The notes below the pieces were generated by a model. It did no database searches. It was given only the letters and a program-made list of their open reading frames with translations, and was not told the origin of the DNA. This document shows positions 11,784 through 48,140 of a DNA stretch of 64,000 nt, one piece after another. The stretch lies in NCBI RefSeq assembly GCF_016427565.1, contig NZ_JAELXT010000001.1, positions 372,001 through 436,000 of the forward strand. Reading direction: 5' to 3'. This stretch comes from Microvirga splendida. GTDB lineage: Bacteria > Pseudomonadota > Alphaproteobacteria > Rhizobiales > Beijerinckiaceae. Each line of letters begins with the position of its first letter. Position 1 is the first letter of the stretch. A program made the position numbers and the translations under genes.

Positions 11784-12953
11784 ATGTCCTTTGCCCCCCT
11801 CGTCTCCGAACCGCGAAGCCAGGTCGACGATCCGTCGAGCCTGGTCATGCGCTTTGGCCCGGACGAGCCCCTGATGATGGATGCCGGGATCGCGCTCGCG
11901 CCCTGGCAGATCGCCTACCAGACCTACGGCACGCTGAACGCGGACAAATCCAACGCGGTGCTGATCTGCCACGCGCTCACCGGCGATCAGCACGTGGCGA
12001 ACGACAATCCGGTGACGGGCAAGCCCGGATGGTGGCTCACCATGGTGGGGCCCGGCCGGCCGGTGGACACGGACCGGTTCTTCGTGATCTGCGCCAACGT
12101 GATCGGCGGCTGCATGGGCACCACGGGCCCGGCCTCGATCAACCCGGCCACAGGCCAGCCCTACGCCCTCGACTTTCCGGTCGTCACGATCCCCGACATG
12201 GTGCGCGCGCAGGCTGCTCTCATCGACCGGCTCGGCATCGAGAAGCTTTTTTGCGTCGTCGGCGGCTCCATGGGCGGCATGCAGGTGCTGCAATGGGCGG
12301 CGGCCTATCCCGACCGGGTCTTTGCCGCACTTCCCATCGCCACCGCCGCCCGCCACTCGGCCCAGAACATCGCCTTCCACGAGGTCGGCCGCCAGGCCGT
12401 GATGGCCGATCCGGAATGGCGCGGCGGGCGCTACCTGAACGAGGGCACGCGCCCGTCCAAGGGGCTGGCCGTCGCCCGCATGGGCGCGCACATCACCTAC
12501 CTGTCGGAAGTCGCCCTGCACCGGAAGTTCGGGCGCAATTTCCAGGACCGGGCCGCTCCCACCTTCTCCTTCGACGCCGATTTCCAGATCGAGAGCTACC
12601 TGCGCTACCAGGGCATTGCCTTCGTGGAGCGGTTCGACGCCAACTCGTATCTCTATGTCACCCGGGCGATGGATTATTTCGACATCGCGGCCGAGCATGG
12701 CGGCTCGCTGGCCAAGGCCTTCAAGGGCACGCCCACGCGCTTCTGCGTGATCTCGTTCACCTCCGACTGGCTGTTTCCCACCTCCGACTCCCGGGCCATC
12801 GTGCATGCGCTGAACGCTGCGGCGGCGTCCGTCGCCTTCGTGGAGGTGGAGAGCGACAAGGGGCATGACGCCTTCCTGCTCGAGGAGCCCGAGATGTTCG
12901 CGGCGGCGCGGGGCTTCATCGATGCGGCGGCGCGCGCCCGGGGGATCGCATGA
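11784..12953 (+). CDS. metX: Homoserine O-acyltransferase
   Basis: 389 residues, alpha/beta-hydrolase fold. Activates homoserine by O-acetylation (some MetX enzymes use succinyl-CoA) as the first committed step of methionine synthesis. Nucleophile S162 sits in GGSMGGMQ; the oxyanion region [12 protein letters not shown] is at 105-116; the catalytic His lies in SDKGHDAFL near the C-terminus, with Asp in SDWLFPT. The start ATG 11784 is the first in frame; an upstream TTG extension has no family similarity. It overlaps metW by 4 bp, the usual pairing in alphaproteobacteria. Confidence 0.93.
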
Positions 12954-13594
12954 GCCTGCCCGGCACCCTGCCCCTCACCGATATGGCGAGCGGCCACCGC
13001 CTCGACTTCCTGCTGGTCGCCGACATGGTCGAGCCCGGCTCCCGCGTGCTCGATGTGGGCTGCGGCGACGGGGCGTTGCTCTCGCTCCTGCGCGACCGCA
13101 GGGGCGTCGACGGGCGCGGCATCGAGATCTCGCGGGAGGGCGTCAACGCCTGCCTCGCCAAGGGGCTGCCGGTGATCCAGGGCGATGCCGACACCGACCT
13201 CGCCGATTACCCGGACGATGCCTTCGACTACGTGATCCTGTCGCAGACGATCCAGGCCACGCGCCAGCCCAAGGTGGTGCTGGAGCATCTCCTGCGCATC
13301 GGCCGCCGGGCCATCGTGTCCTTTCCGAATTTCGGCCACTGGCGGGTGCGCGTCGATCTCGGCCTGCGGGGCCGGATGCCCATGACCGAGAACCTGCCCT
13401 ATTCCTGGTACGACACGCCCAACATCCATTTCTGCACCATCCGGGACTTCGTGGAGCTGTGCCGGGAGGTCGGGGCCGGGATGGAGAAGGCCGTGGCGCT
13501 GAACGCCGGCGGCCAGCCCATGCGCGTCACCTTGCCCTGGTGGGTGTGGAATCTGTTCGGGGAGCAGGGGGTGTTTTTGCTGAAGCGGCGGTAG
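12950..13594 (+). CDS. metW: Methionine biosynthesis protein MetW
   Basis: 214 residues, a small methyltransferase-like protein with SAM-binding motif [13 protein letters not shown] at residues 33-44. MetW is required with MetX for full homoserine acylation in several proteobacteria; whether it methylates anything is unclear. The family end region with [30 protein letters not shown] and a C-terminal [14 protein letters not shown] is intact. The start codon overlaps the metX stop (ATGA), showing co-translation. Confidence 0.93.
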
Positions 13595-34677: not shown

Positions 34678-36228
34678 ATGCCGACTTCCACGCAGTCACA
34701 ACACGTCGCCATCATCGGGGCGGGTCCGGGGGGCTTGGCATCTGCCATGCTGCTGGCCCGCGAGGGGATTCCGGTCACGATTTTCGAGCGCGAACCCGCC
34801 GTGGGTGGCCGCACCCGCACGATTCACGCTCCCGGCGGCTACAAATTCGACATCGGCCCCACGTTCTTCCTGTATCCCCGCGTCCTGAAGGACATCTTCG
34901 AGGCCTGCGGCGAGCGCCTGGAGGACCATCTCGAACTCCGGCGCCTCGACCCGCAATATCACCTCGTGTTCGAAGGCGGCGGCGATATCCGCGCGACCTA
35001 CGACCTCGATCGCCTGGAGCAGGAGATCGCCCGGCTTGCTCCTGCCGATGCCCGCAACGTGCGGCGCTTCCTCGACGACAACCGCGAGAAGCTCGAAGCC
35101 TTCCGGCCCGTGCTGGAACAGGCCTTTTCGAGCCCGGCGGACCTCTTTTCGCCCGCCATGATCGCGGCGCTGCCGAAGCTCAGGCCGTTCTCCAGCGTCG
35201 ACGGCGATCTCAAGCGCTACTTCGCCGACCCGCGCGTGCGCCTCGCCTTCTCGTTCCAGACGAAATACCTCGGCATGTCGCCGTTCCAGTGCCCGAGCCT
35301 GTTCACGATCCTCTCGTTCCTCGAATACGAGCACGGCGTGTTCCACCCCATGGGCGGCTGCGGCGCGGTGTCGGAGGCCATGGCGAACGTGGCGCGCAAG
35401 ATGGGGGTCGACATCCGGCTGAACACGCCGGTCGATCGCATTCTCTACGAGAACGGGGAAGCGGTCGGCATCGAGGCCGGCGGCGAGCGGTTCGGTGCCG
35501 GCTCCGTGGTGGTCAACGGCGACTTCGGCCATGCCATGCGCCGCCTCGTGCCGGAAGAAATGCGCCCGCGCTGGAAAAACAAGAAGCTCGATCGCGCCAA
35601 GATCTCCTGTTCCACCTTCATGCTGTATCTCGGCATCGAAGGTGATGTGGGCGATCTCGCCCACCACACGATCCTGCTGTCGAAGGAATACGAGCGCAAC
35701 ATCCACGAGATCACCAACGGCATTCTGCCCGACGAGCCGTCGATCTACGTGCATCATGCCGGCGTGACCGACCCGTCGCTTGCGCCCAAGGGCCATGCGA
35801 GCCTTTACGTGCTGGTGCCCGTGCCGAACCTGCGCTGCGACGTCGACTGGGCGCAGGAGGCGCCGCGCTATCGCAGGATCGCCCTGGAGCGGCTGAAGGT
35901 GCTCGGCCTCACCGACATCGAAAGCCGCATCCGCTTCGAGCGCGTGGTGACGCCGCGCGGCTGGGAGGACGAGTTCGCGGTTTTCGAGGGCGCCACCTTC
36001 AATCTCGCGCACAACCTGACGCAGATGCTCTATTTCCGGCCGCACAACCGCTTTGGCCGCAACGTCTATCTCGTCGGCGGCGGCACCCATCCGGGCAGCG
36101 GGCTGCCGGTCATTTACGAAGGCGCCCGGATCACGACGCGCCTGCTGCTCGAAGATCGCGAGCGCCGCAAGGTCGGGAATGACAGGCCGGAGCCCGCCGT
36201 CGCGCCGGTGGGCGAAGCCGCTTTGTGA
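34678..36228 (+). CDS. CrtI/CrtN-family carotenoid desaturase
   Basis: 516 residues. FAD-dependent oxidoreductase with N-terminal dinucleotide fold IIGAGPGGLASAMLL (about 12-26), EREPAVGGRTRT, the substrate region FDIGPTFFLYP and HPMGGCGAVSEAM, and the C-terminal FAD motif NVYLVGGGTHPGSGLPVIYEGA. These enzymes introduce double bonds into phytoene (C40), dehydrosqualene or squalene (C30). With the HpnC/D/E genes downstream and no separate phytoene synthase in the window, a C30 substrate is likelier, by inference. First gene of the cluster. Confidence 0.85.
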   Translation: MPTSTQSQHVAIIGAGPGGLASAMLLAREGIPVTIFEREPAVGGRTRTIHAPGGYKFDIGPTFFLYPRVLKDIFEACGERLEDHLELRRLDPQYHLVFEGGGDIRATYDLDRLEQEIARLAPADARNVRRFLDDNREKLEAFRPVLEQAFSSPADLFSPAMIAALPKLRPFSSVDGDLKRYFADPRVRLAFSFQTKYLGMSPFQCPSLFTILSFLEYEHGVFHPMGGCGAVSEAMANVARKMGVDIRLNTPVDRILYENGEAVGIEAGGERFGAGSVVVNGDFGHAMRRLVPEEMRPRWKNKKLDRAKISCSTFMLYLGIEGDVGDLAHHTILLSKEYERNIHEITNGILPDEPSIYVHHAGVTDPSLAPKGHASLYVLVPVPNLRCDVDWAQEAPRYRRIALERLKVLGLTDIESRIRFERVVTPRGWEDEFAVFEGATFNLAHNLTQMLYFRPHNRFGRNVYLVGGGTHPGSGLPVIYEGARITTRLLLEDRERRKVGNDRPEPAVAPVGEAAL

Positions 36229-36239
36229 GGGAAGATGCC

Positions 36240-36338
36240 ATGAGCCGGATCGGATTGCTCGCGTTTCTGTTTCTCATTCCCTCATCGGCCCCCAAGCCCG
36301 CCAATCGGCCCGAACCCTCATCGAGGATCCCTCGATGA
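36240..36338 (+). CDS. Possible 32-residue small protein (doubtful)
   Basis: A short frame between the desaturase and methyltransferase genes begins ATG 36240 with GGGAAG upstream. It encodes a peptide with hydrophobic N-terminus (LLAFLFLIP) and a Pro/Arg-rich end. It has the look of a tiny membrane or leader peptide but no homologue is known to me. The 139-bp gap holds nothing else; it may be non-coding. Confidence 0.2.
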   Translation: MSRIGLLAFLFLIPSSAPKPANRPEPSSRIPR

Positions 36339-36367
36339 AGGCCCTGCCGTCGATCCGCTAGATCCCC

Positions 36368-37465
36368 ATGCTGTGGCGCGCCTATGCCCTTCTGTCCCAT
36401 GGGGGAGACCGCTTCGGCCTCGGCTCCATGGGTCTCGGCTCCTGGCGCATTCCCGTCGGCGCGCCGGCCTCCCGAAAGGCTGACGACGTCCTGAAGGTGC
36501 TCGAAGAGGCCGATACCGCCATCTGGTCGGCAAGCGTCCTGTCGGCCTGCGCCGAGAGCGGCCTGCTCATGCGGCTCAGGCAGCCGGCCACCAGCGCCGA
36601 GCTGGCGCAGGCCCTGTCCCTTCCGCCGGCTCTCGTGCAAACCCTGCTCGATGCGCTCGCCGCCCGCGGCTTCATCACATGGAAGGGCGGCCGGGTGCAG
36701 GCCTCACCGTCCCTGATGCCGTTCACGTCGCCGGAAGGGGCGGAGACCTTCAAGGCCGCCTTGCGCGCACCGCTGCTGCAGAGCGAGGATTTCCGGCGCA
36801 GGCTGAAGGCGGGAACCTTGAGCCTCGACGGCTGGTCGCACACCGACGACGCCATCATCGAGGCGCAGGGCACCCTGACCCGGCACTGGACCACGCGGGC
36901 GCTGCCGAAGCTGAAGTTCCTGCCGGGTCTCGTCCCGCGGCTGGAGGCCCCCGGAGCGTCGCTTCTCGACGTGGGGGCAGGCGCTGCAGGCCTCTCCATC
37001 GCGCTCTGCCGGCAATACCCCCGCCTGAGCGCCGTCGCGCTGGAGCCGGCACCGCATCCGGCCGAGCTCGGCGAAGCGCATGTGCGGCAGGCGGGGCTGG
37101 CGAACCGCATCGCGATCCGCCGGGAGCGGGTGGAGGAGATGCAGGAGGACAAAACCTTCGACCTCGCCTTCCTGCCCCAGATGTTCCTGCCCGATGCGGT
37201 CATCGAGGAGGCCATTCGCCGGATCTTCCGCGCCCTGAAGCCGGGAGGCTGGCTTCTGGTCGCAGCCCTCGCCCATGACGGCCGGAGCACGGCATCCGTG
37301 GTCAACCGGCTGAAGAACCTGCTCTGGGGCGGCAACACCCGCGACGTGGCCCAGATCAAGCCGCTCCTGGAATCGGCCGGCTTCGACCCGGTGATCCGGG
37401 CGCCGGGACGGCAGTCCCTGCGCATGATCTGCGCCCGTCGCCCAAACCTGCGTGATCTGCCTTGA
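36368..37465 (+). CDS. SAM-dependent methyltransferase, O-methyltransferase-like with winged-helix N-domain
   Basis: 365 residues. N-terminal dimerisation/winged-helix part (about 35-150; ATSAELAQALSLPPALVQTLLDALAARGFI) and a C-terminal methyltransferase fold with motif I LLDVGAGAAGLSIAL (about 198-212), followed by FDLAFLPQMFLPD and LKPGGWLLVAA. This architecture is that of small-molecule O-methyltransferases such as CrtF (carotenoid hydroxyl methylation), and the place in the cluster supports a carotenoid or carotenoic acid as substrate. That is inference; the start ATG 36368 has no strong ribosome site. Confidence 0.75.
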   Translation: MLWRAYALLSHGGDRFGLGSMGLGSWRIPVGAPASRKADDVLKVLEEADTAIWSASVLSACAESGLLMRLRQPATSAELAQALSLPPALVQTLLDALAARGFITWKGGRVQASPSLMPFTSPEGAETFKAALRAPLLQSEDFRRRLKAGTLSLDGWSHTDDAIIEAQGTLTRHWTTRALPKLKFLPGLVPRLEAPGASLLDVGAGAAGLSIALCRQYPRLSAVALEPAPHPAELGEAHVRQAGLANRIAIRRERVEEMQEDKTFDLAFLPQMFLPDAVIEEAIRRIFRALKPGGWLLVAALAHDGRSTASVVNRLKNLLWGGNTRDVAQIKPLLESAGFDPVIRAPGRQSLRMICARRPNLRDLP

Positions 37466-37547
37466 AGTGGGTCATGCCATTCCTAGAACCAACACAACTG
37501 GACACCGGCCTTGGAACGACTAGGCTCGTGCCCTGCGGGAGGACATC

Positions 37548-39083
37548 GTGAGCGCTCAAGGAAGTTCGGTTGCAGTCATCGGCGGAGGACTGGGCGGATT
37601 GGCGGCCGCCTGCGTTGCCGCCGCCCGCGGCCACACGGTCACGCTTTATGACAAGAACGCCTGGATCGGCGGCAAGGCGGCCGTGCTGCACGAGGACGGG
37701 TTCCGGTTCGACATGGGCCCGACCATCCTCACCGTGCCGCGGGTCCTGGAGCGCATCTTCGCCGAGGCCGGGCGCAACCTCCACGACTATCTCGACCTCG
37801 TGCGGCTCGATCCGCAATGGCGCTGCTTCTTCGACGACGGCACGCAGATCGACCTGCAGGAGAACATCGACGCCATGGCCCAGGCCATGGACCGCTTCGC
37901 TCCGGGCAAGAACACCGGCGAGGGCTACAAGCGCTTCCAGGAGATTTCCGCCCATCTCCACGAGATCTCGAACAAGTTCTTCTTCTGGAAGCCGGTGGAG
38001 GACCTCTTCGACACGATCAACATCCGCGCCAACATGAATCCGGGAACGTTGCGGGACGTGCTGTCCCTGCGCATGGGATCGTCGGTGGCCGGCACGATCC
38101 GGTCCAAGGTGAAGGATGAGCGCCTGGCCCAGATGCTCGACCACTTCACCCAATATGTCGGCTCTTCTCCTTATGGCTCGCCCGCCGTGCTGTGCGCCAT
38201 CGCCCACATGCAGGCGGCGGACGGCGTGTGGTATCCCATGGGCGGCACCCGCGCCGTGGCCGAGGCCCTGGCGAAGCTCGCGACGGAACTCGGCGCCACC
38301 ATCAAGACTGACAGCGACGTGGCGTCCCTCAGGATCGAGAACGGCGCCGTCACCGGCCTCGTGCTCGCGAGCGGCGAAACGGTGGCCTACGACCGCGTGA
38401 TCTCCAACATGGATTCGATCCGCACCTATCGCGAGCTCGTCGGCGGCGAGGTGGGCGAGCACTACGCGAAGAAGGATTTCGAGCCTGCCTGCTCCGGCGT
38501 GGTGCTCTATCTCGGCCTCAACAAGCGCTACGATCACGTGCTCCACCACGACTTCGTGTTCTCGCGCGACCCGGAGGAGGAGTTCGACTACATCTACCGC
38601 CGCGGCGAGCCGGCGCCCGATCCCACCTGCTATCTCGCGGCACCGGCCGCCACCGACCCGAGCGTCGCGCCGGAAGGCGGCGAGGCGCTCTACGTGCTGG
38701 TGCACACGCCGTATCTCCGCCCGCATCACGACTGGTCGCAGATGTTCCCGGCCTATCGCCAGACGATCATCGACAAGCTGAAACGCACGGCGGGCATGGA
38801 GGACATCGAGGAGCGCATCGTCGTCGAGCGCCATCTCACGCCGCAGGACATCCATGACCGTTACAAGGTGCTCAACGGCGCTATCTACGGTCTGGCGAGC
38901 CACGGCAAGTTCATGGGCGCGTTCAAGCCGGGCAACCGCAGCCGCCAGGTGCAGGGCCTCTACCTCGCCGGCGGTGCGGCCCATCCCGGGCCGGGCATGC
39001 CGATGGTCATGATGTCGGGCTGGATCGCCGCCGACGCGCTCGATGCAGACACCAAGGTCACCGATCTACGGAACGTGTCTTGA
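37548..39083 (+). CDS. CrtI-family carotenoid desaturase/oxidase (CrtP/CrtD-like)
   Basis: 511 residues, second FAD oxidoreductase of the cluster. Starts at GTG 37548, 5 nt behind GGGAGG. FAD fold VIGGGLGGLAAACVAAARG (about 9-27), RFDMGPTILTVPRVLE, WYPMGGTRAVAEAL and C-terminal GLYLAGGAAHPGPGMPMVMMSG. Compared with the first paralogue it may desaturate further or oxidise the terminal methyl group to aldehyde/acid (as CrtP/CrtNb do); sequence by eye cannot decide. The acyltransferase gene overlaps its stop, the start of a six-gene coupled run. Confidence 0.83.
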   Translation: MSAQGSSVAVIGGGLGGLAAACVAAARGHTVTLYDKNAWIGGKAAVLHEDGFRFDMGPTILTVPRVLERIFAEAGRNLHDYLDLVRLDPQWRCFFDDGTQIDLQENIDAMAQAMDRFAPGKNTGEGYKRFQEISAHLHEISNKFFFWKPVEDLFDTINIRANMNPGTLRDVLSLRMGSSVAGTIRSKVKDERLAQMLDHFTQYVGSSPYGSPAVLCAIAHMQAADGVWYPMGGTRAVAEALAKLATELGATIKTDSDVASLRIENGAVTGLVLASGETVAYDRVISNMDSIRTYRELVGGEVGEHYAKKDFEPACSGVVLYLGLNKRYDHVLHHDFVFSRDPEEEFDYIYRRGEPAPDPTCYLAAPAATDPSVAPEGGEALYVLVHTPYLRPHHDWSQMFPAYRQTIIDKLKRTAGMEDIEERIVVERHLTPQDIHDRYKVLNGAIYGLASHGKFMGAFKPGNRSRQVQGLYLAGGAAHPGPGMPMVMMSGWIAADALDADTKVTDLRNVS

Positions 39084-39919
39084 GGCAGGAAACGAGCAAG
39101 GCCGCCACAGAACGCTCACCGCCCCGTCGCGGTGGGCTTTCACCTGTTGCGCGTCGCTCCCCCCTGCTCCACCGCTTCATGGTCTCGACCTTCCGCCGCT
39201 ACTTCACGCGGCACATGAATGCGCTGCGGATCGCCGCCTGGGGCATGCCGGCCGCTCCTGCGAGCGGTCCGGTGATCGTCTATTCAAACCACCCGGCGTG
39301 GTGGGACGCGGCGGTCTATATCATCGCTGCGGATCGCTTCCTGCCCTCTTACGAAAGCTACGCGCCCATCGACGCCGCGATGCTCAAGCAATACGGCGTC
39401 TTCGGCCGCATCGGCGCCTTCGGCGTCGATCTCGAGAGCCCGCGCGGCGCGGCGGACTTCCTGCGCGCCAGCGCCGAGATCCTGTCGTCGCCGGACCGCG
39501 CGCTCTGGATCACCGCCCAAGGGCACTTCAGCGACGTGCGCGAGCGCCCGCTCGGCCTGAAAGCCGGCGTGGCGCGCCTTCCCGAACTCGCGCCCGGCTG
39601 CACGATCATCCCGCTCGCCATCGAGTACGGCTTCTGGCTGGAGCGCGGGGCCGAGACCTTTATCGCGTTCGGCAAGCCCATGCGCGGCGAGGACCTCCTG
39701 AGCCTCGCACGCCCCGCGCGCCTGGACCGCCTCGAGGGCGAACTCGCCACCACCCTCGACCGGCTGAGCGCCGACGTGCAGAGCCGCGACCCGGCGCGCT
39801 TCCGCGCCCTGCTCGAAGGCCGGGCCGGCGTGGGCGGCCTCTACGACGGCTGGCGCCGGGTGGCGGCAGCCCTGCGCGGACGAAGCTTCGATCCCTCGCA
39901 TGAGGGACGCCCGTCATGA
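39080..39919 (+). CDS. Acyltransferase (PlsC-fold), probable carotenoid glycoside acyltransferase
   Basis: 279 residues. The HX4D motif is SNHPAWWDAAVY (residues about 69-80), followed by LWITAQGHFSDVRERPLGLKAG, which replaces the usual FPEGTRS block, and IIPLAIEYGFWLERG. The PlsC fold with an altered glycerolipid block suggests an acceptor other than lysophosphatidate. In a cluster with a CrtQ-like glycosyltransferase, a fatty acyl transfer to a sugar on the carotenoid (as CrtO in staphyloxanthin) is a reasonable idea. Start TTG at 39080 overlaps the previous stop; ATG 39179 is an alternative. Confidence 0.75.
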   Translation: MRQETSKAATERSPPRRGGLSPVARRSPLLHRFMVSTFRRYFTRHMNALRIAAWGMPAAPASGPVIVYSNHPAWWDAAVYIIAADRFLPSYESYAPIDAAMLKQYGVFGRIGAFGVDLESPRGAADFLRASAEILSSPDRALWITAQGHFSDVRERPLGLKAGVARLPELAPGCTIIPLAIEYGFWLERGAETFIAFGKPMRGEDLLSLARPARLDRLEGELATTLDRLSADVQSRDPARFRALLEGRAGVGGLYDGWRRVAAALRGRSFDPSHEGRPS

Positions 39920-41028
39920 TGGTGCTCGGCCTCATCCTGCTCGCGCTCGCGATCCTCCCCTTCGCGTTGGCTCTCGTGAACCTGAGCATCCTGCGGGCGA
40001 CACCGGCCCATGCGCCGAAAGGAGATGTCCTCGTCTCGATCCTGATCCCCGCACGCAACGAAGCGAAGAACATCGGCCCTGCCCTCGATGCGGCTCTGGC
40101 CAGCGTTGGCGTGCCGGTCGAGATCCTGGTCATGGACGACGGCTCGACGGATGCGACGCCCGAGATCGTCCGCGCCTATGCCGCCCGCGACGCACGGGTG
40201 CGCCTCCTCACGGCTCCTCCGCTCGAGGAAGGGTGGACCGGCAAGGTTCACGCCTGCCATCATCTCTCCGAAGCAGCCCAGGGCACGCACTTCCTGTTCG
40301 TGGATGCCGACGTGCGCTTGAGGCCGCAGGCCGCCGCCCGTCTGGCGGGACACGCGCAGGAGACCAATGCCGGCCTGGTGAGCGCCGTGCCGCGCCAGAT
40401 CATGCGCTCGCCAGGCGAGCTGCTGACAGTCCCCACCATCAACCTGCTGCTCCTCGGCTATCTGCCCATGGGCTTCATGCGCCTTTCCCGCGATCCGGGG
40501 CTCGGCGCGGCCTGCGGCCAGCTCATGCTGGTGGAGCGGGAGGCCTATCGCGCGAGCGGCGGCCACGCCGCGATCCACGCGCGGATCCATGACGGCATTC
40601 AGCTCGCGCGGCTCTTCCGCCGCAAGGGCTTCATGACCGATCTCGTGCCGGGCGATCCCCTCGCCTCCTGCCGGATGTATGCGCGCTTCGACGAGGCCTG
40701 GAACGGCTTTGCCAAGAACGCCCATGAAGGCATGGCGACGCCCGTCGCGCTGCCGGTCTGGACGGCGCTTCTCCTCGGCGGGCATATCCTGCCGTTCGTG
40801 CTGCTGCCGTTCGCGCCGAATCTGCCCATCGTGGCTGCGGCGCTCCTGTCCCTCGCGACGCGGACGCTTGTGACCGTGGCGACGCGGGAGAATCCCTGGT
40901 CCATCCCCTTGCATCCCTTCACCATGCTCGTCGGCCTCGCCATTCAATGGAGCGTGCTCCTGCGGATCGGCACGGCCCATCGGGCCGGCTGGAAGGGGCG
41001 GCTCTATCCTGTCGGGGTGAAGCCATGA
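39916..41028 (+). CDS. Family 2 glycosyltransferase, CrtQ/HpnB-like
   Basis: 370 residues. One N-terminal membrane helix, GT-A domain with VSILIPARNEAKNIGPAL, VMDDGSTDATPEIV and the metal-binding DVR (FVDADVRL), the acceptor EEGWTGKVHACH segment, and C-terminal membrane helices (LLLGGHILPFVLLPF, LVGLAIQWSVLLRI). This topology matches CrtQ (glycosylation of 4,4'-diaponeurosporenoate) and the hopene-associated HpnB. It overlaps both neighbours by 4 bp. Probable role: adding a hexose to the carotenoic acid or hydroxyl of the C30 carotenoid, inferred. Confidence 0.8.
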   Translation: MMVLGLILLALAILPFALALVNLSILRATPAHAPKGDVLVSILIPARNEAKNIGPALDAALASVGVPVEILVMDDGSTDATPEIVRAYAARDARVRLLTAPPLEEGWTGKVHACHHLSEAAQGTHFLFVDADVRLRPQAAARLAGHAQETNAGLVSAVPRQIMRSPGELLTVPTINLLLLGYLPMGFMRLSRDPGLGAACGQLMLVEREAYRASGGHAAIHARIHDGIQLARLFRRKGFMTDLVPGDPLASCRMYARFDEAWNGFAKNAHEGMATPVALPVWTALLLGGHILPFVLLPFAPNLPIVAAALLSLATRTLVTVATRENPWSIPLHPFTMLVGLAIQWSVLLRIGTAHRAGWKGRLYPVGVKP

Positions 41029-42683
41029 GCCTGGACACGATGCAGGCAACGAAGCGGCCACGGAACGAGAATTTTCCCGTGGCCTCCCTGGTGCTCTCGC
41101 CCGAGCACCGGGATGCGGTTCTCGCCTTCTACGCCTTCGCGCGGCTCGCCGACGACATCGCCGATGCACCGGGGCTGAAAGCAGCCGAGAAGCTCAACCG
41201 GCTCGATGAGCTCGAGCAGGCGCTCATCGCCGGGGATCCTGCGATTCCCGAAGCGGCGCGCCTGCATGCCGCCGACAGGCAGCACAAGGCCGGGATCGTG
41301 CAGGCGCGCGATCTCCTGCGCGCCTTCCGCCAGGACGCGGTGAAGGCGCGCTACAACGAGTGGGCGGAGCTCATCGACTATTGCCGCTTCTCGGCCAACC
41401 CTGTCGGACGCTTCCTGCTGGCGCTGCACAAGGAGCGCGGCGGCGCGCAAGGTCCGGCGGATGCCTTGTGCACGGCGCTGCAGATCCTCAACCACCTGCA
41501 GGATTGCGGCAAGGATCACGACAATCTCGGGCGCATCTACATCCCGCTGCGCTGGATCATGGGCGCAGGTTCGAAAAAGGCCTTCTTCGAACCGTCGCGT
41601 GCCGATCTGCGCCGCAGCGTGTGCGACGCCATGCTCGACCGGGTCGACGCGCTGATCGATCAGGCGCAATCCCTGCCGGAGCATCTGCAGAATCCTCGCC
41701 TGCGCGCCCAGAGCATCGCCACGGTCGCGCTGGCCCGGCGCTTGAGCGAACGCCTGCGCCGCAGCGATCCGGTTCTGGAGCGGGTGCAGGTGAGCAAGGC
41801 CGACGCCTGCATGGCCTTCCTGAAGGGGCTGGGCGGAACGCTGCGCCAGCCGGCGGGAAGCGACCAGCGCATCACGGCCGCCATGGTGCGGCGCTCCGGA
41901 TCGTCGTTCCGCCTCGGCATGCAGAGCCTCCCGCAGGAACGTCGGCGGGCCATGCATGCGGTTTATGCCTTCTGCCGCGCCGTCGACGACATCGCCGACG
42001 GGGCCGCGCCGCCCTCCGAGAAGCGCGCCTTCCTGCGCGAATGGCGACGCGAGCTCGACCGGCTGCAGCGCGCCCCGGAGACGCCCGTCGGGCGCGAGCT
42101 CGCCCGTGCGTCGACCCTCTTCAAGCTGCCGATGGAGGAATGCCACGCGCTCCTCGACGGCATGGAGATGGACAGCGCGGACAGGGTGCGGATCACGAGC
42201 GATTACGAGCTCAATCTCTACGGCCGCCGGGTAGCGGGTTCGGTCGGAGCCCTGTCGATCCGCATCTTCGGCGTGCCGTCGGCCCATGATTTCGCCATCA
42301 ATCTCGGGCGCACCCTGCAACTCGTAAACATCCTTCGCGACGTGGACGAGGATGCAGCCTGCGAGCGCGTCTATGTTCCCCTGTCGCGGCTGGCGCAGCT
42401 CGGGTTGCAGGATGCGCCCGCCGCCACCCTCGTGGCCGATCCGCGCTTCGCCCGCGTCTGCGAAGGCTTGGCCGAAGAGGCGCATGCAGGCTTTGCCGTT
42501 GCCGATGCCGCCCTGACGCGCCTCGACCGCACGGCCTTGAAACCCGCGATCCTGATGATGGAGAATTATCGCCGCGTGCTCGCACGATTGCAGGCCCGCG
42601 GCTGGGGCACGCGCCAAGGCCGGCTGCGCCTGAGCACAGCGGATCGCCTGCACCTCATCACCCGCGCCATGAGGGCCGCATGA
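41025..42683 (+). CDS. HpnC-HpnD fusion: presqualene diphosphate / hydroxysqualene synthase
   Basis: 552 residues; two squalene/phytoene synthase domains in one chain. Domain 1 (about 1-265) opens NFPVASLVLSP, has the first Asp motif LADDIADAPG and the second LQDCGKDHDNLGRIYIP, as in HpnC. Domain 2 (about 285-550) has SFRLGMQSLP, VDDIADGAAPPSEKRAFL and LVNILRDVDEDAACERVYVP, as in HpnD. In most bacteria these are separate genes; HpnD makes presqualene diphosphate and HpnC converts it to hydroxysqualene. Fusion would channel the intermediate. ATG 41025 overlaps the previous stop and hpnE follows by 4 bp overlap. No separate crtB/crtM is seen. Confidence 0.9.
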   Translation: MSLDTMQATKRPRNENFPVASLVLSPEHRDAVLAFYAFARLADDIADAPGLKAAEKLNRLDELEQALIAGDPAIPEAARLHAADRQHKAGIVQARDLLRAFRQDAVKARYNEWAELIDYCRFSANPVGRFLLALHKERGGAQGPADALCTALQILNHLQDCGKDHDNLGRIYIPLRWIMGAGSKKAFFEPSRADLRRSVCDAMLDRVDALIDQAQSLPEHLQNPRLRAQSIATVALARRLSERLRRSDPVLERVQVSKADACMAFLKGLGGTLRQPAGSDQRITAAMVRRSGSSFRLGMQSLPQERRRAMHAVYAFCRAVDDIADGAAPPSEKRAFLREWRRELDRLQRAPETPVGRELARASTLFKLPMEECHALLDGMEMDSADRVRITSDYELNLYGRRVAGSVGALSIRIFGVPSAHDFAINLGRTLQLVNILRDVDEDAACERVYVPLSRLAQLGLQDAPAATLVADPRFARVCEGLAEEAHAGFAVADAALTRLDRTALKPAILMMENYRRVLARLQARGWGTRQGRLRLSTADRLHLITRAMRAA

Positions 42684-43966
42684 CAGCACGACGCACCCAT
42701 ATCGTCGGCGCGGGAATCGCAGGCTTGAGCGCGGCGCTGGCCGTCACGGCGGATGGCGGCGAAGCCGTGCTCTACGAGGCGGCTCCCCATCCGGGCGGGC
42801 GCTGCCGCACGCTGCATCCTGCCGATGGGTTCGATCACGACAACGGCACCCATGTGCTGTTCACGGCGAACGGGCGGGCGCTCGATCTCCTGAGAACCGT
42901 AGGTGCGCGCGAGCGCTGGATCGAGCCCGAGTCCAAGGGCCTTCCCCTTTATGACGGGCGCACCGGCGAGATGCGCCGGGTCGGCCTCTCGCCCTGGTCC
43001 TGGCTGCGGCCATCCCGCCGCCCGCAGGGGCTGACCCTGCCCGATCTCGCCCGCATCCTGCGCCTGGTCTTTGCCGCGAAGGACTGCCCGGTGGCCTCCA
43101 TCATCGGGAAGCGCCCGATCATGGACAGCCTGATCGAGCCGCTGACGGTGGCGGTGCTCAACACGCCGCCCGAGCAGGCCTCCGCGCAGCGGCTCGCCTG
43201 TGCGCTCCGCCAGCTCATCCGCCCCGGCGCCGGGCGTCTCCTGGTGGCGAAGAACGGGCTGAGCGAGGACCTGATCGCGCCCGCCGTCGCGACCCTGCAG
43301 GCCAGAGGCGTGCCCGTTCTCACCGGTCAGCGCTTGCGCATGCTGCTCACGGCCAACGGGCGCGTGATCGGGCTGGCGCTCAGCGACCGCACAGTGATGC
43401 TCGGCCCCGACGACCGCGTGATCCTGGCGCTCCCTCCTTATGAGGTGGAGCGGCTTCTGCCCGAGCTTCCCGTGCCGACGCAGTTCGAGCCGATCCTCAA
43501 CGTGCATTACCGCATGCAGGGGCTGGAGCATCCGCGCTTCATCGGCTTTATCGGAACTCTCGCCCAATGGGCGCTGATCCGCCCGGGCCATGTGAGCGTC
43601 ACCGTCTCGGCGGCCGACGCGGTGGTCGATCAGAGTGCGTTCGATGTGGCGGCGCGGATCTGGCGCGAGATCGCGCCCGCCTTGCGCTCCCTCGGCCTCG
43701 ATGCACGCGCCGACCAGCAGCCCGAAACCCGCGTCGTGAAGGAAAAGCGCGCCACGATCCGCCAAGCCGCCGAGACGCTGCCGCAGCCGCCCCTGCGGCC
43801 GCTCGCCAACTTGGCGCTGGCCGGCGACTGGATCGGCTCCCTTCCCGCCACCATTGAGAGCGCCGTGATGGCCGGCGAGCACGCCGCATCCATTCTGCAC
43901 CACGCCCGCGGCACCCGGGCCACCATTGCCAGAGATTCAGCCTTGAAGACGGAGGATGCGGCATGA
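42680..43966 (+). CDS. hpnE: Hydroxysqualene dehydroxylase HpnE
   Basis: 428 residues. FAD-dependent amine-oxidase-like enzyme; reduces hydroxysqualene to squalene. N-terminal IVGAGIAGLSAALAV (about 8-22), YEAAPHPGGRCRTL, FDHDNGTHVLFTAN, and C-terminal LALAGDWIGSLPATIESAVMAGEHAA. Translationally coupled to the HpnC-HpnD fusion and to ispH by 4-bp overlaps. The combination completes farnesyl diphosphate to squalene; squalene-hopene cyclase is not in the window, so the squalene may go to the neighbouring desaturases. Confidence 0.9.
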   Translation: MTARRTHIVGAGIAGLSAALAVTADGGEAVLYEAAPHPGGRCRTLHPADGFDHDNGTHVLFTANGRALDLLRTVGARERWIEPESKGLPLYDGRTGEMRRVGLSPWSWLRPSRRPQGLTLPDLARILRLVFAAKDCPVASIIGKRPIMDSLIEPLTVAVLNTPPEQASAQRLACALRQLIRPGAGRLLVAKNGLSEDLIAPAVATLQARGVPVLTGQRLRMLLTANGRVIGLALSDRTVMLGPDDRVILALPPYEVERLLPELPVPTQFEPILNVHYRMQGLEHPRFIGFIGTLAQWALIRPGHVSVTVSAADAVVDQSAFDVAARIWREIAPALRSLGLDARADQQPETRVVKEKRATIRQAAETLPQPPLRPLANLALAGDWIGSLPATIESAVMAGEHAASILHHARGTRATIARDSALKTEDAA

Positions 43967-44931
43967 TTCAGGACCATCCGCCGCTCACCGTTCTGCTGGC
44001 GGCGCCGCGAGGCTTCTGCGCCGGGGTCGAACGCGCCATCCGGGCTGTCGAGGACGCGCTGGAGCGCACGGGAAAGCCCGTCTATGTGCGCCATGAGATC
44101 GTCCATAACAACCGGGTGGTGGACGACCTCAAACGCAAGGGTGCGGTCTTCGTCGATGACATCGCGCAGATTCCCGACGGTGCGGTTGCCATCTTCAGCG
44201 CCCATGGGGTGTCGCGCGCGGTGGAGCGGGAGGCCGCAGGCCGCGGGCTCTCCGTGCTCGACGCCACCTGCCCGCTCGTGCGCCGCGTTCATCTCGAAGG
44301 ACAGCGCCATGCCAGGGCAGGCCGCGAGATCATCGTCATCGGCCACCGGGGCCATGTGGAGATCGAGGGCACGACGGGTCAGATCGACGGCACCGTGCAT
44401 GTGATCGAGAGCGTCGAGGAGGCGCTTAACGTGCCTGTCCTGAACCCGGAGCGCATCGCCTACGTCACCCAGACTACGCTCTCCGTGGACGACACGCGCG
44501 AGATCATCGCGGCGCTGAAATCACGGTTCCCGGCCATCCAGGGACCGGACGTGAAGACCATCTGCTACGCGACGCAGAACCGGCAGATGGCGGTGCGCGT
44601 CATCGCCCGGCGGGCGGAGCGGATCATCGTGTGCGGCGCGCGCAACTCGTCGAACACCAACCGCCTGTGCGAGGTGGCCGTCAACGAGGGCCGCCAGGCG
44701 CTGCTTCTGCAGGATCCGAAGGATCTGACCCTCTCCTTCATCGACGGGGCCGCCGTGATCGGCCTCACCGCCGGAGCCTCAGCGCCGGAGGATCTGGTGC
44801 AGGAGGCCTTGGCGCGGCTCGCCCAGTGGCGGCGCCTCACCGTCGAGGAGGTGAGCGTCACCCGCGAGGATGCGCAGTTCGCCCCCGTCGATCTCTCGCG
44901 TCTCGTCAATCAGCTCGCAAACGCTTCCTGA
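43963..44931 (+). CDS. ispH: 4-hydroxy-3-methylbut-2-enyl diphosphate reductase
   Basis: 322 residues. Last step of the MEP isoprenoid pathway, an iron-sulphur enzyme. The family marks APRGFCAGVERAI (Cys about 20), YVRHEIVHNN, FSAHGVS, DATCPLVRRVH (second Cys), GHRGHVEIEGT, YVTQTTLS, TICYATQNRQ (third Cys) and VCGARNSSNTNRL are all intact. Its location as the last gene of the coupled operon links C5 isoprenoid supply to squalene and carotenoid synthesis. Its 3' end overlaps the convergent MATE gene by 22 bp. Confidence 0.95.
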   Translation: MIQDHPPLTVLLAAPRGFCAGVERAIRAVEDALERTGKPVYVRHEIVHNNRVVDDLKRKGAVFVDDIAQIPDGAVAIFSAHGVSRAVEREAAGRGLSVLDATCPLVRRVHLEGQRHARAGREIIVIGHRGHVEIEGTTGQIDGTVHVIESVEEALNVPVLNPERIAYVTQTTLSVDDTREIIAALKSRFPAIQGPDVKTICYATQNRQMAVRVIARRAERIIVCGARNSSNTNRLCEVAVNEGRQALLLQDPKDLTLSFIDGAAVIGLTAGASAPEDLVQEALARLAQWRRLTVEEVSVTREDAQFAPVDLSRLVNQLANAS

Positions 44932-46331: not shown

Positions 46332-46464
46332 GATGCGGGGCTTGTAGCCAACCTGCCGCCGGAAAGCCACATCGGGAACTCTCGTCGCAGGAAGGAACCT
46401 GAACTCAAGCGCGTCCGTTCACCTCTTCGCTCACAAGTTTGTGTTGGCTTTATCGGAGTTCTTC

Positions 46465-47442
46465 ATGGCGCAGCCGGCGCTCTCCACCGCAATCGACTTC
46501 GCCCTGCCGCCGGTCCTGCACAACGAGCAGGGCGAGATGCGCACGGTCGGGGTCGAGATCGAGTTCGTCGGCCCGTCCGCCGAGAAGACCGTGCAGGCCC
46601 TGCAGGAGGCGCTCGGGGGACGGCTCCTCGAGGAGGACCCCCATGCCTTCGCCCTGAAGGAATCGGCCATCGGCGACCTGACCGTGGAGCTCGACAGCCG
46701 GATCCTGCATCCGGGCAAGCAGGCCGGCACCCAGCGCGGCGTGCTGCCCAAGATCGCCGCACTGTTCGGCTTTGCGGCAAGCTATCTCGTGCCCTGCGAA
46801 CTCGTCACCGCCCCGACCCCCATCGACCGGCTGGAAGAGCTTAACCGCATCCTGGCGGTCTTGCGCCGGCTCGGCGCCAAGGGCACGCAGGATGCGCCCT
46901 TTTATGCCTTCGGACTGCATTTCAACCCGGAGATCCCCCGCCAGGACGCAGCGACCGTCACGGCCTTCATGAAAAGCTTCGCGCTGCTCAATCCATGGCT
47001 CCGGCGCGAGGCCTCCCCAGACACGACCCGCAATCTCCTCGGCTTCGCGGATCCGTTTCCGGCCGAGTATGTCCGCAAAATCGTCGAGCCGGATTACGGG
47101 CCCGACATCGCGGCTTTCATCGACGACTACCTTGCCTTCAACCCGACCCGGAACCGCGACCTCGACCTTCTGCCGCTCCTGCACCACTTCGATGAGGAGC
47201 GCGTGCGGAACGTGCTGCCGAACGAAAAGATCAACGGCCGCCCCACATTTCACTACCGCCTGCCCGATGCGCGGGTGAGCGATCCCGGCTGGAGCATCGC
47301 GCCGGACTGGAACCGCTGGGTCTGCGTCGAGCGCCTGGCCGCCGATCGCGAGAAGCTGGATGCGGTCGGCTCTGCCTATCTCGGTTTCGAGGGCACGGAG
47401 AAGAGCTGGGCCAACGTGGTGGAACAGGTCATACGCACATGA
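46465..47442 (+). CDS. Amidoligase family protein (predicted COOH-NH2 ligase, GS-like fold)
   Basis: 325 residues from ATG 46465 (GGAG 8 nt upstream; the GTG 46441 is an alternative). The family marks are GVEIEF at 29-34, LTVELDSRILHPG at about 72-84, VPCELVTAPTPIDRLEEL, FGLHFNPEIP and the C-terminal RPTFHYRLPDARV...WSIAPDWNRWVCVERLA. Known of the family: predicted ATP-dependent ligases related to glutamine synthetase/gamma-glutamylcysteine ligase that form amide bonds in unknown peptides or tagged proteins. Overlaps the following GATase-like gene by 4 bp; the pair is a recognised conserved context. Confidence 0.85.
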   Translation: MAQPALSTAIDFALPPVLHNEQGEMRTVGVEIEFVGPSAEKTVQALQEALGGRLLEEDPHAFALKESAIGDLTVELDSRILHPGKQAGTQRGVLPKIAALFGFAASYLVPCELVTAPTPIDRLEELNRILAVLRRLGAKGTQDAPFYAFGLHFNPEIPRQDAATVTAFMKSFALLNPWLRREASPDTTRNLLGFADPFPAEYVRKIVEPDYGPDIAAFIDDYLAFNPTRNRDLDLLPLLHHFDEERVRNVLPNEKINGRPTFHYRLPDARVSDPGWSIAPDWNRWVCVERLAADREKLDAVGSAYLGFEGTEKSWANVVEQVIRT

Positions 47443-48140
47443 CGAAGCCCCTCATCGGCGTCACCACCTCCCGGCGCGGCGGATGGCGCAGCTACCTCAT
47501 GCACCGGCTGGCGCTTTATCGCGCAGGCGCGCGCTCCATCCGCCTCGTGCCGGGGAATCCCTTGCCGGCTGAGCCGCTCCACGGGCTCGTCATCGGCGGC
47601 GGCGACGACATCGGCGCGGAGATCTACGGCGGGCAGGTTCTGCCCGACGTGCGCATCGACCCCGATCGCGACAAGCTGGAGCTCGGCCTGCTCAAGGCGG
47701 CCCTTCCGGCCAGATTGCCGGTGCTCGGCATCTGCCGCGGATCGCAGATGATCAACGTGGCGCTTGGCGGCACGCTGCACACGGACATCTACGAGGTCTA
47801 CGTGCAGGCGCCGAAGATGCGCACCGTCCTGCCGCGCAAGACGGTCTCCGTCGAGAAAGAATCGCGCCTCGACCGCATCCTGCGCTGCAACCCATGTCTC
47901 GTGAACGCCCTGCATCATCAGTCCGTCGACCGGCTCGGGCAGGGCCTCAGCATCGCGGCCCGTGACGAGAGCGGCATCGTGCAGGCCATCGAGAGCCGGA
48001 GCGCGCCGTTCCTGCTCGGCGTTCAATGGCACCCTGAGCTGCTGGTCTGGAAGAAGCCGCAGCAGCGGCTGTTCGCGGCGCTCACCGAAGCCGCCGGTGA
48101 GGCGACGGTTCCTCTCTCGGCGGCGGCACTGGCCCTCTAG
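47439..48140 (+). CDS. Gamma-glutamyl hydrolase/class I glutamine amidotransferase-like (peptidase C26)
   Basis: 233 residues. The catalytic triad is C99 in GICRGSQMIN, H198 and E200 in QWHPE; ALHHQSVDRLG lies before. This resembles PuuD-type hydrolases that cleave gamma-glutamyl amide bonds. Being co-translated with the amidoligase, it is likely to remove or hydrolyse the same kind of amide that the ligase makes, or to supply ammonia; both are inference. It ends close to a degenerate repeat and the convergent sensor gene. Confidence 0.88.
   Translation: MTKPLIGVTTSRRGGWRSYLMHRLALYRAGARSIRLVPGNPLPAEPLHGLVIGGGDDIGAEIYGGQVLPDVRIDPDRDKLELGLLKAALPARLPVLGICRGSQMINVALGGTLHTDIYEVYVQAPKMRTVLPRKTVSVEKESRLDRILRCNPCLVNALHHQSVDRLGQGLSIAARDESGIVQAIESRSAPFLLGVQWHPELLVWKKPQQRLFAALTEAAGEATVPLSAAALAL

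Follow-up and report, generated by a model that had tools for sequence, protein, structure and literature searches.

The route from squalene to C30 carotenoids is reportedly the subject of a PNAS 2022 paper. Genetic proof that a C30 pigment is made through squalene is already published for Methylobacterium extorquens and Azospirillum brasilense (PMC10448405; PMC13274349). The pigment of M. extorquens AM1 is an acylated glucosyl diapolycopenedioic acid, and its glycosyltransferase and acyltransferase steps have been proven by deletion and complementation (PMC10448405). In A. brasilense Sp7, colour is abolished by deletion of either hpnCDE or crtNPOQ, and squalene accumulates in the latter case (PMC13274349). 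Here we describe an operon of Microvirga splendida, located at 34678-44931 of a 64,000-nucleotide window (the whole stretch of DNA that was analysed; contig NZ_JAELXT010000001.1, positions 372,001 to 436,000), which very probably constitutes a self-contained squalene-route pathway to a C30 carotenoid. What is distinctive about this locus is the single dedicated operon that unites squalene supply with the decorating enzymes, its tie to the absence of a hopene cyclase, a separate clade of IspH, and an orphan methyltransferase. No paper on a C30 pathway in Microvirga was found in the open literature, a coverage outside which most subscription journals lie.

M. extorquens AM1 and PA1 resemble Microvirga in their supply by HpnCDE and in possessing CrtN, CrtP, a glycosyltransferase and a PlsC-like acyltransferase, and judged by locus tags the order crtP-acyltransferase-glycosyltransferase is also that of Microvirga; their hpnCDE genes, however, stand elsewhere, next to the cyclase gene, and supply hopanoid and pigment synthesis alike (PMC10448405). 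In Microvirga, by contrast, HpnC and HpnD are fused, the squalene genes and a second IspH belong to the pigment operon, a methyltransferase gene is present and no cyclase was found. A. brasilense (NZ_CP032343.1, strain MTCC4038) arranges crtN, crtP and the acyltransferase and glycosyltransferase genes as Microvirga does, at 46-71% identity, but distributes its genes over two separate loci, has a linked aldehyde dehydrogenase and DUF2141 gene, and lacks a methyltransferase gene in the cluster. Squalene and pigment genes stand together, as in Microvirga, in Geminicoccus (locus L038) and on a plasmid of Palleronia sp. LCG004 (locus L200). Geminicoccus further shares the fused HpnCD, the IspH and the gene order, whereas in Palleronia HpnC and HpnD are separate and a sulfotransferase is present, and both clusters differ from the window in their linked aldehyde dehydrogenase and DUF2141 genes. 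The staphyloxanthin genes crtOPQMN likewise yield a desaturated and oxidised C30 chain that is then glucosylated and acylated (PMC10448405, together with general knowledge), yet their backbone comes from CrtM instead of HpnCDE, and their acyltransferase is of another family.

Organization of the operon

The operon consists of eight co-directional open reading frames (ORFs) on the plus strand, here called A to H. A (34678-36228) encodes a crtN-type desaturase and C (37548-39083) a crtP-type oxidase, both of the CrtI family, with 518.8 and 419.3 bits against TIGR02734 (cut-off 238.1); this model matches 13 places in the genome, and only these two exceed its cut-off. Between them lies B (36368-37465), which encodes an S-adenosylmethionine-dependent methyltransferase with the COMT fold (PF13649, 44.6 bits). 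D (39080-39919) encodes a PlsC-type acyltransferase and occupies the place of the acyltransferase in the Methylobacterium-like cassette; its sole Pfam match, to PF01553, is weak (25.4 bits), NCBIfam gives none, and it does not classify as a CrtO-type acyltransferase. E (39916-41028) encodes a family 2 glycosyltransferase (PF00535, 79.2 bits) that resembles CruG and HpnB but stays under the cut-offs of those families (NF045692, 115.3 of 600). The squalene module follows, with HpnC (346.3 bits, cut-off 250.45) and HpnD (349.6 bits, cut-off 278.6) fused in the single ORF F (41025-42683), an HpnE-like hydroxysqualene dehydroxylase in G (42680-43966), and in H (43963-44931) a second IspH (TIGR00216, 302.4 bits, cut-off 187.85) that belongs to a carotenoid-cluster clade. 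These are the families named in the original prediction, which had also claimed a 4-bp overlap at every junction from 39080 to 44931, and all five overlaps are indeed present (TTGA at 39080; ATGA at 39916, 41025, 42680 and 43963). The first two intergenic gaps of the operon measure 139 and 82 bases, with no overlap.

When the window and 20 intact loci of named Microvirga are taken together as 21 loci, an in-frame 4-bp overlap is kept in 19, 21, 16, 18 and 21 of them at the first to fifth of these junctions, and because of this conservation the overlaps are not a matter of chance. Two of the starts deserve comment. For F, the start at 41025 is better than that at 40947, the first ATG of the ORF; the overlap of C and D at 39080 depends on a TTG start of D, which may also begin further in, the homologue in M. 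ossetica being annotated about 33 codons further in. The 37 related loci comprise 20 intact and two decayed ones of Microvirga, two of Geminicoccus, eight of other Alphaproteobacteria and five of Nitrospirae. Over the synthase the 20 intact Microvirga loci show 59-89% identity, and the gene order is kept in all 20. In the CrtI tree (50 rows, a quick method, with long-branch warnings), A and C fall into two groups, each of which contains counterparts from A. brasilense, Palleronia, M. ossetica, Geminicoccus and the genomes of code g9, while the remaining CrtI genes of Methylobacterium-like genomes fall outside both; C is 71% identical to the A. brasilense gene at the same position.

The operon is flanked upstream by a divergent DPBB/RlpA-like gene and downstream by a convergent gene of the MATE family, and three promoter or operator patterns sought upstream of it in 19 loci gave zero matches. 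Further along the window, at 46441-48140, a putative amidoligase gene (PF12224) has a 4-base overlap with an ORF that reads by eye as a glutamine-amidotransferase-type hydrolase.

Proposed pathway

Because A. brasilense and Methylobacterium-like genomes share this order of the orthologous crtN, crtP, acyltransferase and glycosyltransferase genes, and genetic tests of the pathway exist for A. brasilense and M. extorquens (PMC13274349; PMC10448405), the best reading is that squalene is desaturated and oxidised and then glucosylated and acylated, which bears out the original prediction that squalene from HpnCDE feeds the two desaturases. From the gene content, order and orthology, and the lack of another catalytic-looking synthase and of a cyclase, all of which we observed directly, we infer every reaction in this organism, the methylation above all. 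IspH from H would raise the supply of isoprenoid precursors, the fused HpnC-HpnD would convert two farnesyl diphosphates into hydroxysqualene, and G would reduce this to squalene. A would then desaturate squalene to the diapolycopene chain and C would oxidise the chain ends, while an aldehyde dehydrogenase encoded elsewhere would complete the carboxyls. As in M. extorquens, a carboxyl would be glucosylated by E and the sugar acylated with a fatty acid by D, after which B would probably methylate the remaining carboxyl or a sugar hydroxyl. Since no hopene cyclase was found, squalene would serve the pigment only.

Several points weigh against this reading. None of three query proteins found an aldehyde dehydrogenase in a search of the window. 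G scores under the HpnE cut-off (TIGR03467, 248.3 bits of 283.05), and B is missing from three of the 20 intact Microvirga loci (L031, L032 and L033) and is without a close characterised relative. The squalene module can exist without pigment genes, because genome G122 has the fusion, HpnE and a cyclase and has no crtI match, and a cyclase also adjoins further fusions in the class. On the other side, the decayed operons of M. vignae (L037) and Microvirga sp. KLBC 81 (L052) count in favour, as in each of them crt and hpn genes alike are fragmentary.

The operon is without a gene for the step to the carboxylic acid, and aldehyde dehydrogenase genes were also not found in the examined stretches of the other Microvirga loci. 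Cluster-linked ones occur in M. ossetica, A. brasilense, Palleronia, both Geminicoccus loci (one of them cut by a contig end) and genomes G035, G162 and G294; coordinates are L198 4323-5684, L199 5840-7312, L200 12439-13809 and L038 about 11810-12967. Those of M. ossetica (WP_099515038.1), Geminicoccus and Palleronia are candidates for the missing oxidation step of both Methylobacterium and Microvirga. Two aldehyde dehydrogenases tested in M. extorquens AM1 were uninvolved in pigment (PMC10448405).

The methyltransferase gene

B stands between crtN and crtP in 17 of the 20 intact Microvirga loci and also occurs on a plasmid of M. ossetica, and none of the six loci from genera g21 and g34 has it. 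Among 149 genomes of the family it has a strong match in two, plus one match of 30% in G034 that lies outside the cluster; six sampled Methylobacterium-like genomes gave no close homologue, and in 72,556 plasmid records only M. ossetica exceeded 30%. The predicted model of B, built from 17 sequences, is of moderate quality (predicted local distance difference test score 70.7) and folds like the COMT-type methyltransferases, with DsyB as the nearest fold. B is not of the CrtF/BchU type, scoring 20 bits against TIGR02716 (cut-off 276.1); the fold is shared, and the BchU structure 1x1a comes at rank 30. COMT-type enzymes carry a catalytic histidine, and the site where it would be expected is occupied, throughout the B family, by an invariant F-x-PQ-x-FL stretch, which gives only a hint that the enzyme might act on a carboxylate. 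B may cap a free carboxyl of the pigment or a sugar hydroxyl. We put it at somewhat under an even chance that B is the founder of a new family of C30-carotenoid methyltransferases, capping acyl-glucosyl diapolycopenedioic acid at its free carboxyl or its sugar to give an undescribed pigment, in a hopanoid-less lineage with a private fused squalene line and its own IspH for pigment alone.

It is also conceivable, and a rival to be taken seriously even if we lean against it, that B lies outside the pathway, methylates some other substrate and stands in the operon by coincidence. Its absence from three intact Microvirga loci and from the six g21/g34 loci would fit, as would the substrate of DsyB, its nearest characterised fold relative, which is a small sulphur compound. 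Against this stand the position of B between crtN and crtP in the other 17 loci and on the M. ossetica plasmid, the other tailoring genes found at the cluster in other lineages, such as the Palleronia sulfotransferase, and the proposal of an unknown methyltransferase for the pigment of M. extorquens PA1 (PMC10448405). The sulfotransferase gene of Palleronia sp. LCG004 (L200 11352-12461) follows the glycosyltransferase gene and hints at a sulfated pigment; because this cluster has it in place of B, the last decoration seems to vary among lineages.

A DUF2141 gene lies between A and B or C in eight of the 20 intact Microvirga loci (L024-L027, L030, L031, L034 and L035), and such a gene is also found in four of six g9 loci, in G070, at L038 of Geminicoccus and in every one of the six g21/g34 loci. 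The gap at 36229-36367 of the window, on the plus strand, holds a short reading frame resembling the two ends of the intact genes of L024, L025, L027, L030, L031, L034 and L035, and is apparently the remnant of such a gene. In Sphingomonadales, DUF2141 genes are on record beside C40 carotenoid genes (PMC5989583).

The squalene module and its relatives

By curated models the two synthases of F are HpnC and HpnD and not CrtM (dehydrosqualene synthase). The genome contains three SQS_PSY domains, namely both halves of F and one 280-residue protein on contig C59, whose gene (L004 9008-9850) adjoins genes that read by eye as secD, secF and trmFO. HpnC and HpnD keep both aspartate-rich motifs and the third protein has neither; it matches PF00494 strongly (213.9 bits), yet falls far under every synthase cut-off in its table, and would thus appear to be a non-catalytic relative, perhaps related to the complex I assembly factor NDUFAF6. 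The original prediction had seen no separate phytoene or dehydrosqualene synthase, and with the caveat of this protein that holds genome-wide: the whole-genome search it had proposed for crtB and shc, the squalene-hopene cyclase gene, found no catalytic-looking crtB or other backbone synthase, and no shc.

The fused frame is without stops in all 21 loci of the group of F within the tree set. In the synthase tree (49 rows, quick method, midpoint root, ten Microvirga near-duplicates left out), a well supported branch sets off the fusions of Microvirga, of two further genera in the family, of G122 and of Geminicoccus, and the G138 fusion falls among separate hopanoid-type genes, which points to an independent fusion in a hopanoid cluster. 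At least 97 of the 149 family genomes match the synthase, and among the matches listed both halves share one stop-free frame in ten (G000, G070, G122, G020, G060, G091, G034, G072, G101 and G138). A cyclase is found in none of the eight fusion genomes with crtN and crtP and in both of those without them, G122, where crtI has no match at 1e-15, and G138, which has one weak crtI match (57 bits) on another contig. G122 is of the same genus and carries fused HpnCD with HpnE at L115 540-3436, and HpnD, hopene cyclase and IspH on another contig (L124 1759-7764); three more genomes of the same genus, G032, G099 and G142, gave zero matches to synthase, crtI or cyclase. The six g9 genomes, which their gene order suggests to be Methylobacterium, all have crtN, crtP, separate HpnC and HpnD, and a cyclase, and the four genomes with separate HpnC and HpnD at L040-L043 all reach the cyclase cut-off.

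We considered whether the HpnC-HpnD fusion is peculiar to carotenoid clusters and rejected this in view of the fusions near cyclases and the independent one of G138. Across the class, 18 of 385 Alphaproteobacteria, the source of the window included, match the fusion at E 1e-75 or better. Five of the other 17 have an internal stop (G302, G319, G365, G399 and G441) and one is partial (G348). As for the remaining 11, a cyclase lies in the examined stretch of six (L181, L182, L186, L188, L189 and L190), a crtP-like gene in that of two (L183 and L184) and neither in three (L185, L187 and L196).

The genome has two IspH genes, H and a copy on contig C22, and since H also falls in a separate clade we rejected the idea that it is the sole housekeeping IspH. 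In the IspH tree (51 of 62 rows, after removal of ten near-duplicate Microvirga rows and one repeat, with a long-branch warning that includes Geminicoccus), a single clade (100/99) unites the operon copies and separates them from the housekeeping and the hopanoid-linked ones. All eight full-cluster genomes have two IspH genes (in G101 a contig end truncates the second), and the six g9 genomes have one each. A second IspH is not peculiar to pigment clusters, seven cluster-less genomes also having two (G122, G138, G009, G103, G013, G118 and G095), and some of these second copies adjoin a cyclase.

Hopene cyclase and the fate of squalene

Neither TIGR01507 nor PF13243 found a squalene-hopene cyclase in the genome. 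TIGR01507 matched strongly in 18 of the 29 family genomes, a set that also included genomes with a cyclase and separate HpnC and HpnD, whether CrtI proteins were present or not. The 14 control genomes say little about this model, because none of them passes its cut-off; PF13243 passes in two of the controls. The named Microvirga genomes with intact loci (none of 20 over the cut-off, with one weak partial match in G539), Geminicoccus flavidas (none found) and the two decayed Microvirga genomes (weak partial matches only) are all genomes of unstated completeness.

It is in our view very unlikely that the module of HpnCD, HpnE and IspH mainly feeds another product, for example hopanoids, with the carotenoid genes as mere neighbours. 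The same enzymes do serve hopanoids elsewhere, G122 and G138 combine the fusion with a cyclase and lack crtN and crtP, and several fusions of the class sample are near a cyclase; yet no cyclase was found in this genome or in the eight full-cluster genomes of the family, none of the 20 named Microvirga exceeds the cut-off, and the overlapping genes are conserved across Microvirga. We give just as little credence to a bypass of squalene, in which G is not the dehydroxylase and the desaturase takes hydroxysqualene or another C30 intermediate. The low HpnE score of G would allow this, but HpnE is its best family by a wide margin (the next reaches 42.6 bits), it follows HpnCD in all 20 intact Microvirga loci, and squalene builds up in A. 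brasilense without crtNPOQ (PMC13274349). Least probable of all is a C40 pathway in which the third SQS_PSY protein makes phytoene and both CrtI-family enzymes act on C40 chains, which we reject because that protein, for all its strong PF00494 match, lacks both aspartate-rich motifs and stays under all synthase cut-offs, and A and C, whose family name alone is uninformative on chain length, group with squalene-route cluster genes.

In a simple history, a cassette with its own squalene supply would be old in the family, and in Methylobacterium-like lineages the hopanoid genes would serve hopanoids and pigment alike; Geminicoccus may have been the donor or the recipient of a transfer.

Implications

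Squalene from related modules goes into hopanoids, into pigment or into both, and in the present case apparently into pigment only, which makes this lineage a natural experiment in which, for that reason, the flux of squalene to pigment could be studied without a hopanoid defect. The operon offers a single-operon source of the C30 pathway, and the clusters compared here provide candidates for two steps that are open in M. extorquens, the methyltransferase, for which the B family or a functional counterpart may serve, and the aldehyde dehydrogenase, for which the cluster-linked genes may.

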